A program made the translations under genes and the position numbers. The notes under the pieces are model-generated. The model saw nothing but the letters and a program-made list of their open reading frames with translations, made no database searches and had not been told where the DNA came from. From assembly GCF_039536245.1 (NCBI RefSeq), contig NZ_BAAAYN010000002.1, forward strand, positions 153,942-202,436: 48,495 bases of DNA, written 5' to 3'. Source of the stretch: Cryptosporangium minutisporangium (GTDB taxonomy: Bacteria > Actinomycetota > Actinomycetes > Mycobacteriales > Cryptosporangiaceae). How positions within the stretch are numbered: position 1 is the first letter of the stretch; each line of letters starts with the position of its first letter. This document shows, in pieces, positions 40,060 to 46,338 of this stretch.

Positions 40060-40478
40060 GAGCGGTCGTGCAGACCGTCGCGGAGGCGTCGGTCACGGTC
40101 GACGGCGAGGTGGTCGGGGCGATCGAGTCCGGGCTCCTGGTCCTGGTCGGAGTCGCGCGCACCGATACGCCGGAGCAGGCGGCGCTGCTCGCCCGGAAGG
40201 TATACGAACTGCGCATCCTGGACGACGAGCGGTCGGCGTCCGATATCGGCGCGCCGCTCCTGGTGGTCAGCCAGTTCACGCTCTACGCCGACACCCGGAA
40301 GGGGCGGCGGCCGTCCTGGCTGGCGGCGGCACCGGCGGACCAGGCGGAGCCGCTGGTGGACGCGGTGGTCGCGGCCTTGCGCGAGCGTGGCGCGACGGTG
40401 GAGACCGGACGGTTCCGGACCCACATGCTGGTGTCGTCGGTGAACGTCGGGCCGCAGACGATCCTGCTGGAGGTCTGA
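40056..40478 (+). CDS. dtd: D-aminoacyl-tRNA deacylase
   Basis: Homodimeric proofreading enzyme that removes D-amino acids (and misloaded glycine) from tRNA. The 140 aa begin [20 protein letters not shown]. The first active-site motif is [17 protein letters not shown] (72-88), canonical with Thr in SQFTLY. The second normally reads NxGPVT and here is NVGPQT (130-135): the Gly-Pro that forms the cross-subunit selectivity filter is kept, the flanking residues differ. The GTG at 40056 overlaps the stop of the methyltransferase upstream, indicating coupled translation. Downstream, GC-rich self-complementary sequence (about 40490-40550) may terminate the operon. Confidence 0.93.
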
Positions 40479-40561
40479 GGAGCGGGAAGCCGGGCGCGCG
40501 CGTCGGATGGCGATGGCGCGGCGCGCACGACGCGTCGCGCGCGGGCGTAACGGGGTCGCAC

Positions 40562-40600
40562 CTTAAGGCTGGTTAAGACCGTAACGAAGCCCAGTTAAGG
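40562..40600. promoter_or_regulatory. TTAAG repeats upstream of the sigma-like gene
   Basis: TTAAG occurs at 40563, 40573 and 40595, spaced 10 and 22 bp apart, in otherwise GC-rich DNA. This is close to one and two helical turns, as in direct-repeat sites for dimeric or OmpR-type regulators. A TAGCGT box follows at 40655-40660. Confidence 0.4.
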
Positions 40601-40675
40601 CCCGACTCACCGATTCGGCCACTCGTGTGACCCCTGACTTCTTTTGCGCCGCCGTAGCGTTTACCGTGCCGAATC

Positions 40676-42721
40676 ATGGACGACGTGACGCTTGTTGCAG
40701 CGGTCCAGCGCGGAAACGAGGAAGCGCTGGCCGATCTGTTCGAGGAGTGTCACGGCTGGACGTACTCGACCTGCCTCAATGCGCTCCGCGACCCGGACGC
40801 AGCCGAAGAGGCGACCGCCCGCGTGTTCGAGGTGGCGGTCCGGTCACGTCTGGTCGGTGCCCGCACGTTACGAGCGGCGATGATCCGGCTGATCTACGAC
40901 GCCTGCATCGAGGTCGAGCACGAGCTGCTCCGCCGTGAGTCGGTGGGGCTGGGGTGGCTCCGACGCAAGGGCGAGCAGCCGCCGGCCGCACCGGACCCGA
41001 AGGACCTGCGGCTGGTCGCGTGGCGCGCAGCCGGTGACCTGACCGGTCCGGACCGGATCCTGTTCGCGCTCGCGGCAGCCGCCGAGCTGTCCACCGACGC
41101 GATCGCGACGGCGGTCGAGCCGGACAAGCCCGCGGCGATCGAGAAGCGCCTGAGCGTGATCCGCGACCACGTCGTCGCGGACGTCATCGCGGCCCGCTCC
41201 CTGGACGACTGCCCCGACCTGCGCGACACGCTCCGGTACGCGGCGAAGGAGCCGGACCACGCGGCCCGGAAGAAGGTCCACGCGCACCGCGCGGGCAAGG
41301 GCAAGGTGCCGCCGTGCGCGAAGTGCACGACGACCTACGACCGGTGGCCGCTGGCGGCGCTCGCGGCCCTGCTGCCGCTGACCGCGGTGCCCGCGGGACT
41401 CAACGACCGGCTGCTCGACCGGATGGAGCTGGCGCTGCGGGCGGGGCTCGCCGCCGGCACCGACCGGGTGCGGGCGGTGACCGGCTCGTACGCGGTCATC
41501 GACGGCGCGACCGCGGAGATCGTCACGCCGCGCCGCCCGCCGGTGAGCACGCCGCCGCCCCGACCGTCGGCCGCGCGGCCGACGAGCGGGCGCACGACCC
41601 CGGGACGGCCGACGCCGCCGCACTCCCAGTCGACACACCACTACGCGTCGGCATCCCACTCCGAATCGGCACCGCGCCCCGCGTCGGCACCGCACTCCCA
41701 GTCGGCACCGCGCCCCGCGTCGGCACCGCACTCCCAGTCGGCACCGCCCTCCCAGTCGGCACCGTCCTCCGAGAGCTCCGCGTCCGCGGACCGGTTGGCG
41801 GGAGCCGGTACCGCTACCGCTACCGCGACGATGCCGCGGCCGGAGCCCACCGCCCCCGCGTCCGAGGCGTGGGACGACGACCCGACCCAGGTCCTGCCGA
41901 CCGCCCCGCCCGAGACCGCAGCGGCCCACGCGTCCGAGGCTCCTGGAGAACCCGAAGCACCCGCGAGCTCCGCCCCCGCCGGAGACGTGAACGCAGCCGA
42001 CCCGAACGAAGCGTCCACGGAGGCCCCCGACGATTCGGGAGCCGGCCGCGGCACCAGGCGGTACCGCCCGTTCGCCACCACCGCCACGATCGCCGTCACC
42101 GTCCTGGTTCTCGGCGCGGCCGGTGCACTCGCGCTGGCCACCCACCGCACCCCCACCCAGACCACGGAGAGCCTCGCCGTCGGCCCGACCGCGCCGACGC
42201 TCCCGGACGAGTCGCCCGCCTCGGACCTGACGACCCCGCGTCCGTCGCCGAGCACGCGGGTCTCCGGCCCGTCCGCGACGTCCGACCGCGAGAAGCCGGG
42301 CGCACGGACGTCGCCCTCCACATCCGCGCGGTCGTCGATCCGGCCGATCGCCGGTTCGGCCAAGCCGAAGCCATCAGCCGACCCGTTCCGGACCTTCGGC
42401 ACGCTGACCGTGGTCAGCCCGGCGTACGGCAGCACCGTCTCGCTCTACGACACCGAGGCGCGGCTCGCGAGCGTGACGCTGTCGGTGGCCGTGCCGACCG
42501 GCTTCGACGCCGCGCTGCTGAACTCGACGCTGACCTGGTCCGGGTCGTACGTCCGCCAGCAGGAGACTCACTACGCGGACCTGGGCAGCGGGCAGGACCT
42601 CACGGTTGACCTCCAGGCCGCGCCGAGGTGCACGACGGCGTGGACGATCACCGCGACGCTGACACCGCCCTCCGGAACCCCGCAGTACGCGACCACCGAA
42701 GTGAAGATCACGACCTGCTGA
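40676..42721 (+). CDS. Membrane-anchored ECF-sigma-like protein with extracytoplasmic C-terminal domain
   Basis: A 681-aa multidomain protein. Residues 1-85 resemble sigma region 2 (DVTLVAAVQRGNEEALADLF; LRDPDAAEEATARVFEVAVR). Residues about 115-172 resemble region 4 but lack a crisp helix-turn-helix (STDAIATAVEPDKPAAIEKRLS). A CAKC pair (C214, C217) after CPDLRDTLRYAA suggests a zinc finger like that of anti-sigma factors. A Ser/Pro/Ala linker with 18-bp repeats (about 283-460) leads to a single membrane helix (about 466-488) and a beta-rich outer domain (about 545-681) ending with C652 and C681. The DNA-binding end would be cytoplasmic. No separate anti-sigma gene is next to it. The ATG at 40676 has no ribosome site, so a short leader is likely. 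Confidence 0.7.
   Translation: MDDVTLVAAVQRGNEEALADLFEECHGWTYSTCLNALRDPDAAEEATARVFEVAVRSRLVGARTLRAAMIRLIYDACIEVEHELLRRESVGLGWLRRKGEQPPAAPDPKDLRLVAWRAAGDLTGPDRILFALAAAAELSTDAIATAVEPDKPAAIEKRLSVIRDHVVADVIAARSLDDCPDLRDTLRYAAKEPDHAARKKVHAHRAGKGKVPPCAKCTTTYDRWPLAALAALLPLTAVPAGLNDRLLDRMELALRAGLAAGTDRVRAVTGSYAVIDGATAEIVTPRRPPVSTPPPRPSAARPTSGRTTPGRPTPPHSQSTHHYASASHSESAPRPASAPHSQSAPRPASAPHSQSAPPSQSAPSSESSASADRLAGAGTATATATMPRPEPTAPASEAWDDDPTQVLPTAPPETAAAHASEAPGEPEAPASSAPAGDVNAADPNEASTEAPDDSGAGRGTRRYRPFATTATIAVTVLVLGAAGALALATHRTPTQTTESLAVGPTAPTLPDESPASDLTTPRPSPSTRVSGPSATSDREKPGARTSPSTSARSSIRPIAGSAKPKPSADPFRTFGTLTVVSPAYGSTVSLYDTEARLASVTLSVAVPTGFDAALLNSTLTWSGSYVRQQETHYADLGSGQDLTVDLQAAPRCTTAWTITATLTPPSGTPQYATTEVKITTC
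41648..41773 (+). repeat. Seven 18-bp tandem repeats in the linker of the sigma-like gene
   Basis: Seven 18-bp units begin TCGGCA and encode six-residue blocks SASHSE, SAPRPA, SAPHSQ, SAPRPA, SAPHSQ, SAPPSQ, SAPSSE. Units at 41666-41701 and 41702-41737 are identical 36-bp pairs, pointing to recent duplication. The length is a multiple of 3, so copy-number change keeps the frame. Confidence 0.9.
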
Positions 42722-42846
42722 CGCGTACCTCCGGTCCGGGCCCGGAGCCCGAGGAACGCGGAGTGGTTGTCGCCGTTCCGGGTGGCCGCCCGGATGATTG
42801 CTGCGCTTTCGGTGCCATGGCACGGAAAGCGCGCCAGCCATCCCAG

Positions 42847-43036
42847 GCGTCACCCAGAAAACGCGACACCCACCAGGCGTCCTGTCCAGAAAGCACGACA
42901 ACCACAGCAGACGTCACCCGGGAAGCGCAGCAACCACCGCGGCGTCACCCAGAAAGCGCAACAACCACCGCAAGCGTCGCCCAGAAAGCGCAACAACCAC
43001 CGCAAGCGTCGCCCGGAAAGCGCGACAACCAACCGA
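42847..43036. repeat. Tandem array of about six 30-34 bp imperfect repeats (cluster 1)
   Basis: Units begin GCGTCACCC or GCGTCGCCC, continue AGAAAGCGC or similar, then ACAACCACCGC. Approximate bounds are 42847, 42877, 42911, 42942, 42974 and 43006. Two adjacent 32-bp units are nearly identical. Unit length varies and is not a multiple of 3, so this is not coding sequence. It fills the 353-bp gap between the sigma-like gene and the M56 peptidase gene; a degenerate unit also lies at about 42829-42846. Confidence 0.75.
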
Positions 43037-43074
43037 CGGCGGTTACGCGAGCTCTCCGCGGCGAAGCGGGCGCG

Positions 43075-44019
43075 TCAGGCGACCGCGAGCGGCAGCGCGA
43101 ACGCCCAGAACGGGGAGGTGGCCGTCACCGCGGCGGCCGCGTAGGACAGCGTCCGCAGCCACCAGGACGGCGCGGGCGGCTCCAGGAGCCGCCGCACCCG
43201 CGGCAACACCGCGAGATCCGTCGATCCCAGTGCCCCGGACGGCGCCACGCCGCTCGCACCCGCCGCACCGACCCGGGCGAGCGCGGCGGCCAGCACCGCA
43301 CGGTCCCGGCCCAGGCACGCCCGGTCGTCCGCGAGCATCTCGACGAGCTGCGCGACCGCCCGCCGCGTGCGCTGGGTACCGGCGAGCCCGAACATCGCTT
43401 CCGACCAGGCCGCGAACGGCAGCAGCAACAGGTCGTGCCGCTCGGCCAGGTGTGCGTGCTCGTGTGCGAGGACGGCGTCCAGCTCATCGGGCTCGAGCAG
43501 GGACAGCGCGCCGGTCGTGATGACGACCCGGGAACTCGGCCCGGGCAGGCAGTAGGCCGCCGCCGCGGGATGCTCGATCAGCCGGGCACCCGCGCCGGTG
43601 GCCCGGGCCGGGCTGACCCGGTTCGGCCACGGCGTGCTCACCAGGTCGACCAGCTCGCGCTGGCGCGCGCGGCACCGTGTCGCCCGCCAGGAGGACACCG
43701 CGGTCATCGTCAGCAGCCAGCCGAACAGCCCGATCGCCGCACCCAGCAGGAACAGGTGCACGACGTCGAGCCCACCGCTGAGGTCGCCGGAACGCCAGTA
43801 CGCGGCCAGCGCACCCGGCAGCGACCCAGCCAGCGGCGCGAGTGCGGCCGCCAGGACCGCTCCCCCGGCAGCCAGCCCGGCGGCCAGGCCGAGCGCCTGC
43901 CAGAGCACGAGAACCGCGCGCGGCTCACGCTGGACCCACGCCGCACGGGACAGCGCGGCCGGCACCGGGCCGATCAGCAGGACGGCGACGATGCCGAGAC
44001 CCGCAATCGTGGTCAGCAC
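43075..44019 (-). CDS. M56 family (BlaR1-like) membrane metallopeptidase
   Basis: A 314-aa protein with about four membrane helices (near residues 5-25, 37-65, 87-108 and 288-312). The gluzincin motif HEHAH lies at 186-190, followed by an ExxAD-type element (E227-D231) that could supply the third zinc ligand. M56 peptidases such as BlaR1 cleave a partner repressor; this one has no extracellular penicillin-binding sensor, as in the short actinobacterial members. It lies 85 bp downstream of a BlaI-family repressor on the same strand, its likely substrate or co-regulated partner. The GTG at 44019 begins directly with the first helix; the ribosome site is weak. Confidence 0.88.
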   Translation of the reverse strand: MLTTIAGLGIVAVLLIGPVPAALSRAAWVQREPRAVLVLWQALGLAAGLAAGGAVLAAALAPLAGSLPGALAAYWRSGDLSGGLDVVHLFLLGAAIGLFGWLLTMTAVSSWRATRCRARQRELVDLVSTPWPNRVSPARATGAGARLIEHPAAAAYCLPGPSSRVVITTGALSLLEPDELDAVLAHEHAHLAERHDLLLLPFAAWSEAMFGLAGTQRTRRAVAQLVEMLADDRACLGRDRAVLAAALARVGAAGASGVAPSGALGSTDLAVLPRVRRLLEPPAPSWWLRTLSYAAAAVTATSPFWAFALPLAVA

Positions 44020-46004: not shown

Positions 46005-46186
46005 TTCTTCATTTTCACGCGTGCTCGCGCACCACCGCCGGACAGTGGCCACCGCAAGGCGCACCCGCGGGACACGCCGGGGGCGGCGCCGCGGAGTCTC
46101 CCGGTGCGTGCCGGGTGCGGATGCGGAACTTCCCGGAGCGCGCGGCGTGGGAACACAGAACCTCGCCGTGCCGGCAGGGCGGAGGC

Positions 46187-46338
46187 GCGGAAGCGCGGGG
46201 ACGCGGAAGCGCGGGGACACGGAAGCGCGGAAGCGCGGGGACGCGGAAGCGCGGGGACGCGGGGACGCGGAAGCGCGGGGACGCGGGGACGCGGAAGCGC
46301 GGAAGCGCGGAAGCGCGGAAGCGCGGAAGCGCGGAATC
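46187..46338. repeat. Nineteen-unit octanucleotide array with two alternating unit types
   Basis: Nineteen 8-bp units fill 46187-46338 without interruption. Type A is GCGGAAGC and type B GCGGGGAC, in the order A B A B A A B A B B A B B A A A A A A, with single-base variants at units 5 (ACGGAAGC) and 19 (GCGGAATC). The period is not a multiple of 3, so it is non-coding. It lies in the 1.2-kb interval between sigB and the MFS gene. Confidence 0.95.

Follow-up and report, generated by a model that had tools for sequence, protein, structure and literature searches.

A membrane-tethered protein with a degenerate sigma-like part, a zinc anti-sigma-like domain and a receptor-like layout

The window, by which we mean the whole stretch of DNA analysed (48,495 nt), contains a gene for a 681-residue chain whose parts are collected in Table 1. 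The gene is real: its genus retains it, and the selection acting on it is purifying. With its orthologs (L019, L020 and L021) it is present in 4/4 genus genomes, the ATG start and the three following codons are identical in all of them, and dN/dS, obtained by a simple Nei-Gojobori count, is 0.17-0.44 for residues 1-279 in 6/6 ortholog pairs. The gene order reads GNAT, HhH-GPD-like, methyltransferase, dtd, window gene, M48-type peptidase, BlaI-like repressor and four-region sigma factor; around the window gene it is identical in G002 and G003, and the contig of G001 stops inside the ortholog. Among these neighbours dtd encodes a D-Tyr-tRNA deacylase, the BlaI-like gene is a Penicillinase_R match, the peptidase is of Peptidase_M48 type, and the HhH-GPD-like match lies below the cut-off. 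The domain scan of the neighbours contains no anti-sigma, in line with a sequence-only reading of this DNA that had found no anti-sigma gene beside the window gene. Orthologs, kept gene order and dN/dS rule out a chance reading frame. Opposite-strand frames over the gene (the longest of 425 aa) were not taken as genes; the reverse frame-1 translation contains stops. Judged by the relatives of the protein, its host is probably an actinomycete. Elsewhere in each of the four genus genomes there is a paralog (L015, L016, L017 and L018) with 26-29% identity across the N-terminal part; we refer to the window gene and its orthologs as A and to these paralogs as B.

Table 1. Parts of the window gene and its upstream element, in window coordinates.
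Feature	Residues	Position	Strand	Basis
Triple TTAAG element (TTAAG, N5, TTAAG, N17, TTAAG), 37 bp, 76 bp before start codon		40563..40599	+	Invariance, genome scan
Complete reading frame (681 aa) of the tethered protein with degenerate sigma, anti-sigma and receptor-like parts		40676..42721	+	Orthologs, gene order, dN/dS <1
Sigma2-like domain	1-89	40676..40942	+	E45/A48/R49 (clamp-contact positions) and A68 differ from relatives
Sigma4-like domain	111-178	41006..41209	+	AlphaFold helices; 2-residue deletion in helix-turn-helix turn (alignment columns 227-228)
Class I anti-sigma (ZAS-like) domain; predicted zinc ligands C179, H204, C214, C217	179-259	41210..41452	+	Ligand quartet and helices
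Cytoplasmic leash, Pro/Ala/Ser/Thr rich, 6- and 12-residue repeats	260-468	41453..42079	+	Repeats, hydropathy
Transmembrane helix	469-489	42080..42142	+	Hydropathy only
Extracytoplasmic Ser/Thr/Pro stalk	490-573	42143..42394	+	Translation; dN/dS 0.72-0.89
Outer domain, predicted beta sandwich, cysteine pair C652/C681	574-681	42395..42718	+	AlphaFold; dN/dS 0.33-0.41

The boxes of the upstream element are identical in 4/4 orthologs, and the triple pattern occurs once per genome in 4/4 genus genomes, always at the same distance before the ortholog of the window gene; a reversed-pattern control gave 1 match over the 4 genomes. By its invariance and placement the element may be an operator or promoter element of the window gene. 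A scan of 40400-43200 for the sigma-70 consensus found no promoter-like site. Two repeat arrays lie nearby. Between the stop codon of the window gene and the convergent M48-type peptidase gene, 42822-43035 holds about six degenerate 32-nt direct repeats with the core GAAAGCGCRACAACCAC (6 matches in the window versus 0.02 expected), and at 46179-46336 there is an 8-nt / 24-nt tandem array of GCGGAAGC, in which the short unit recurs about 20 times.

Part of the leash is encoded by 18/36-nt repeats at 41618-41773, which bears out the repetitive linker of the sequence-only reading. The window protein (252) and the G002 ortholog have 252-255 aa between the CxxC pair and the membrane helix, and the G003 ortholog has 159 aa; the value for the G001 ortholog (48) is an artefact of the contig end. 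B has 345-1033 aa here, and 49 relatives outside the genus have 42-176 aa. Degenerate proteins do not all have a long leash: in four proteins of a second tethered set in the genus (C/D, below) it is short, 55-67 aa. The leash of the B paralogs is Gly/Ala-rich, with near-perfect repeats in L015. The single membrane helix, also anticipated from sequence, has a mean hydropathy of 1.97, and the net charge of +4 before and 0 after it predicts an N-inside orientation; the corresponding charges in the orthologs are +2/-1 and 0/-1. The leash and the stalk change quickly (dN/dS 0.29-0.89). Because one of the three orthologs is cut by its contig end (G001; L021), membrane and outer parts were compared in 2 orthologs.

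The outer domain, described beforehand as beta-rich, is indeed predicted as all-beta: AlphaFold, run with 3 rows, gives 8 strands, with pLDDT values of 72.9, 72.2, 47.9, 47.8 and 32.4 for the five models. The model resembles Ig/FN3-like sandwiches in a generic way, and Foldseek returned nothing for it at E<=0.001. The cysteine pair is present in 3/3 orthologs that reach that part. It had been expected that the outer domain would be conserved across several genera, for which the comparison gave no support: it is kept in the two orthologs that reach it, and an HMM of the outer ends of 12 relatives does not reach the window protein or these 2 orthologs at E<=10, so we claim no homology of the outer domain with other genera. 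In B the outer end is a Pro/Thr-rich tail with no evident domain, and Pfam gave no match in 2/2 scanned.

The four predicted zinc ligands, which we read with the ligand spacing of RsrA as our assumed guide, are invariant in 35/35 aligned proteins. The CxxC pair already noted from the sequence, at 214-217, belongs to this quartet, which had not itself been listed. AlphaFold places the helices of the domain at 180-189, 195-206, 215-222 and 242-259. The relatives have Hx3Cx2C in 27/27, and an insertion common to A and B turns this into Hx9Cx2C; the presence of the motif in all relatives is partly selection, because the profile that picked them covers the zinc region. The Pfam model zf-HC2 does not match the window protein. 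In the sections available of PMC7406223, class I anti-sigma domains (ASDI) are defined by a helix bundle with the Hx3Cx2C signature, in which the first helix binds sigma4 and the fourth sigma2. The window protein departs from the exact signature by its H-x9-C-x2-C spacing, and its model has four helices. As in ECF48, ECF52 and ECF53, the predicted quartet puts a zinc-finger (ZAS) domain directly after sigma4.

For the N-terminus, single-sequence evidence of a sigma factor is weak, whereas profile and fold evidence is strong. Pfam assigns the window protein to no family at E<=10, no Pfam sigma model is matched by any of the 8/8 genus proteins (the window protein, 3 orthologs and 4 paralogs), and phmmer against solved structures gave 4 matches for the window protein, none of them a sigma factor. 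We attribute the TFIIB-like phmmer matches (E 0.59-0.6), like the match of one paralog to Acyl-CoA_dh_2 at 21.3 bits, below the cut-off of 22.7, to noise or all-helical likeness. NCBIfam ECF models match inside residues 1-51 with E 0.0013-0.072 for this N-terminal piece, at 12.8-18.3 bits against cut-offs of 194-265. A 35-row profile, built from the 8 genus rows and 27 relatives from outside the genus, matches ECF sigmas among solved structures with E down to 6.7e-29; the 8-row profile of the genus only finds nothing but sigma factors at E<=10, with 6 matches at E 0.017-0.14.

AlphaFold predicts the sigma/anti-sigma module (pLDDT 86.4, pTM 0.84) as an ECF-sigma fold in the anti-sigma-bound pose, although having the anti-sigma domain in the same chain may bias it towards this closed pose. 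In a structural comparison of the module the top 17 rows are all sigma factors or PhyR; Foldseek found nothing at E<=0.001 (best 0.066). The predicted closed arrangement of sigma2 and sigma4 is like that of SigW-RsiW of Bacillus subtilis (5wuq/5wur), which differs in being two proteins rather than one and in that SigW is an active sigma. The AlgU-MucA, sigmaE-RseA and SigK-RskA complexes superpose on one domain of the model only. The sigma-like N-terminus of the sequence-only reading is therefore confirmed by profiles and predicted fold, and the absence of a sigma fold, which would have told against it, is not what the model gives.

Within this fold, residues shared by the sigma-factor relatives have been lost. 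We name the clamp positions by sigma70 D403/Q406/E407, which we take to be the contacts to the beta' clamp. The first is D in 26/27 relatives, E45 in A and I/L/Y in B; the second is H or Q in 26/27 relatives, A48 in the window protein and G in the paralogs; the third, four columns past the clamp D, is D or E in 27/27 relatives, R (R49) in A and Q in B. At alignment column 117, presumably the position of the region 2.3/2.4 aromatic, 27/27 relatives have W and 8/8 genus proteins have A. The net charge of region 2.4 is -1 to +1 in A, compared with +3 to +7 in the relatives and +3 to +4 in B, where both the region-2.4 and the sigma4 helices stay basic (+3 to +4). A and B have in common a 2-residue gap after region 2.2 and a second in the helix-turn-helix turn, where the relative G025b is also gapped. 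R66 is retained in 35/35 rows and R158 in 34/35. The degenerate region 4 of the sequence-only reading is borne out, and regions 2.2-2.4 are degenerate besides. Its suggestion that the protein titrates RNA polymerase is weakened, because the aligned clamp positions are replaced both in A and in the paralogs.

The same loss appears in the scores of a sigma2 model, trained on 20 of the 30 sigma loci fetched from the same genome (omitting 8 that are group 1-3-like and two others). Ordinary ECFs score 80-112 bits (19/20), which is high by construction since the model was trained on sigma loci of their own genome, and this range excludes ecf_L054 (-1.4 bits), whose locus begins at a contig end and is probably mis-cut. 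The tethered relatives outside the genus score 22-66 bits in 48/49 cases, with G025b at 15.8, and 12/12 tethered genus proteins score -3 to 12 bits; L139 stood outside both this scoring and the domain scan, and a sigma4 model (6 sequences) was not used. The sigma2 parts of the relatives already score below those of ordinary ECFs, so the genus proteins may sit at one extreme of a gradual series, which counts against the switch reading that we favour below.

Selection has nevertheless not relaxed to decay. Pooled dN/dS of the sigma2-like part is 0.22 (A) and 0.26 (B) versus 0.08-0.34 in five groups of relatives; for sigma4 it is 0.37 (A) and 0.18 (B) versus 0.02-0.22. The tree unites A and B in a single clade (100/99); its stem measures 1.51 and its two branches 1.82 and 1.49, and the tips are short. 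Thirteen residues are identical across all 8 genus rows and occur in at most 2/27 relatives, 3 of them in columns gapped in 11-27 relatives; six control pairings, each of non-sister groups with 4-8 rows, gave 0, 0, 0, 0, 0 and 4 such residues. Read from the alignment and tree, this history suggests rapid change followed by new constraint, not decay.

Profile searches and trees support common descent of the window protein with the 49 tethered sigma-zinc-membrane proteins outside the genus, 27 from the order and 22 from the class. (The count over class genomes, 333/394, includes ordinary ECFs and has no part in the argument.) The relatives keep the hydropathy peak of a membrane helix after the zinc motif, the weakest uncut one being G204 with 1.58. 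The expectation of homologues with the same order of parts holds as far as this peak. Their outer parts differ: L078 has a glycosyl hydrolase core, L076 a CAP domain, and several have Pro-rich tails in which no domain is evident. The outer part of L078:1462-3339 is the catalytic core of a glycosyl hydrolase (PF11790, E 1.8e-46), fused to the tethered sigma. In a search of G000 with the profile of the relatives that scored 150 of 195 candidates we saw no tethered copy with a clear sigma part; among the 34 of 36 profile matches listed, only the paralog on C12 passes model position 185.

We liken the 49 relatives to ECF48/52/53 by layout, without assigning published ECF group numbers. As described in the passages available of PMC5826349 and PMC8999054, in ECF52 (SCO4117) a sigma factor is followed by a zinc finger, a membrane helix, a stretch rich in Pro and a domain that binds carbohydrate, ECF48 and ECF53 combine sigma, zinc finger and 1-2 membrane helices, and proteolysis is the model for activation of all three. 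The tethered layout is therefore already known, as these groups and our relatives show the identical order; what is unusual is the degenerate sigma part. SCO4117 of Streptomyces coelicolor, as far as PMC5826349 describes it, is like the window protein in having a one-chain sigma, zinc finger, membrane helix, Pro-rich stretch and sensor-like outer domain, and unlike it in that both its sigma domain and its carbohydrate-binding module are recognised. The window protein has instead a sigma part with no Pfam match, an unassigned outer domain and, on the cytoplasmic side, a leash about 200 residues long. ECF48 and ECF53 share with it sigma, zinc finger and a membrane helix C-terminal to that finger (here predicted by hydropathy), but are classified as sigma factors (PMC8999054, in part), and the recognisable ECF sigma2 and sigma4 domains of these groups are absent from the window protein by Pfam and NCBIfam, though the fold is predicted. 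IutY of Pseudomonas putida (ECF243) is likewise a sigma fused to a membrane anti-sigma and freed by proteolysis; by the same partial account it differs as an active sigma of iron-starvation signalling in another lineage (PMC8999054).

The sequence-only reading of a sigma factor, a zinc anti-sigma segment and a sensor-like outer part merged in one polypeptide is supported by these comparisons; as an interpretation of what the protein does, it is partly supported. Because the window protein lacks key residues common to its sigma-factor relatives, it is probably a signalling switch of another kind. The reading that we favour, and to which we give about an even chance, is that it is a single-pass receptor derived from an ECF48/52/53-type tethered sigma, whose sigma/anti-sigma clamshell has become a partner-exchange switch and is no longer a sigma factor. 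The tethered-sigma ancestry, the predicted fold with its closed pose, the loss of shared sigma residues, the ongoing selection and the new fixed residues are computed results, as described above; the loss of sigma activity, the outside signal and the exchange of partners are inferred. A signal on the outer domain, by the example of the relatives a cell-wall or carbohydrate ligand, would loosen or cleave the cytoplasmic module via the membrane helix, and the opened clamshell would then swap partners: either the sigma-like half would take an anti-sigma, or the anti-sigma half would take a real ECF sigma. The precedent for such a role is PhyR of the Alphaproteobacteria (4qic), whose sigma-like domain has ECF structure with degenerate promoter and polymerase regions and acts by titrating the anti-sigma NepR (PMC8103513, in the part available). 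PhyR differs, on the same account, by its receiver domain and its separate anti-sigma (PMC8103513); the window protein has no receiver, carries its anti-sigma domain in cis and is membrane bound. It lacks the PhyR-type combination of a degenerate ECF sigma domain with a receiver domain, and its origin is probably independent of PhyR. If the sigma-like part does bind other regulators, it would be a membrane-bound PhyR counterpart of its own origin. Proteins that keep this tether and zinc clamp and have lost the sigma signature are a natural set in which the roles of the two halves come apart and can each be tested. Among the papers listed from open-access full-text literature, we found no report of proteins of this kind.

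That the window protein is still a working ECF48/52/53-type sigma, with diverged polymerase and promoter contacts and freed by regulated proteolysis, we consider unlikely. Its layout is that of groups expected to be activated by proteolysis, for which the available parts of PMC5826349 and PMC8999054 still give switching of SCO4117-like tethered ECF sigmas as a proposal; the sigma fold is predicted, R66 and R158 are retained, the paralogs have basic region-2.4 and sigma4 helices, and selection is purifying. The diverged contact residues may, as judged from the alignment, be compatible with kept polymerase binding, and that B keeps basic helices with no evident outer domain counts against our receptor or mimic reading. 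Set against this are the 0/8 genus proteins with a Pfam sigma match, the substituted clamp and region 2.4 positions with W replaced by A in 8/8, the low charge of region 2.4 in A and the deletion in the helix-turn-helix turn. Release by proteolysis as a working sigma, as the sequence-only reading had proposed, may occur but is less likely than in the relatives.

We also think it improbable, to a similar degree, that the protein is a membrane anti-sigma acting in trans on an intact ECF, the sigma-like half being an internal lid until the signal arrives. This would fit a zinc quartet kept in 35/35 while shared sigma residues were lost, the four class I helices of the model, the 92 Sigma70_r2 matches over cut-off in the genome, most of them possible clients, and a leash of 252-1033 aa in 6/7 A/B copies reaching the helix, which would give reach. 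However, no ECF adjoins the window gene, and the zf-HC2 matches that pass the cut-off in this genome, 8 in all, each begin 277-566 bp from a Sigma70_r2 match, so that no orphan client is implied. Moreover, the sigma2-like part is about as constrained as the anti-sigma part (dN/dS 0.22 vs 0.30), beyond the needs of a mere lid. A further idea is that of a decaying or structural remnant, a cell-surface or membrane protein whose sigma part only folds. The quickly evolving leash and stalk and a sigma4 that is laxer in A than in the relatives speak for it, but with the gene in 4/4 genus genomes, its order kept wherever the contig allows, its upstream element conserved, its dN/dS far under 1 and 13 residues fixed anew, we regard it as very unlikely.

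The genus has five copies of the second tethered set in 3/4 genomes, four of C type (L132, L133, L134 and L139) and one of D type (L135), with no match in G000. These proteins carry the zinc motif, and the three full-length C copies scanned have an outer domain of the carbohydrate-binding AbfB type (E 1.4e-39 to 1.1e-37). Sigma70_r2 is found in 1/4 scanned, at 12.3 bits (cut-off 24). In the tree C/D groups 100/100 with G208, G222 and G488 (39.5-44.8 bits on the sigma2 model), and a tree forcing A, B and C/D into one clade is disfavoured (p-AU 0.036, which is moderate); the A+B+C grouping was named after the tree had been seen, and the tree warns of two meeting long branches (the G131 group and the G208/C group). 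Since C/D groups elsewhere and a single clade is disfavoured, degeneration probably occurred at least twice in the genus, the C/D set having by this phylogeny probably degenerated separately from A/B. It is conceivable, if on balance somewhat doubtful, that receptors whose non-transcribing clamshell is a partner-exchange switch for other sigma or anti-sigma factors have arisen repeatedly from tethered sigma-anti-sigma fusions, on at least two occasions within one genus.

In another family, L085:6098-7594 (G025b) lies beside a tethered sigma with clear sigma domains; its own sigma2 score of 22.1 bits is below the Pfam cut-off of 24 bits and its sigma4 is weak, at 15.7 against a cut-off of 25.7 bits. 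It may be a third, younger case of degeneration.
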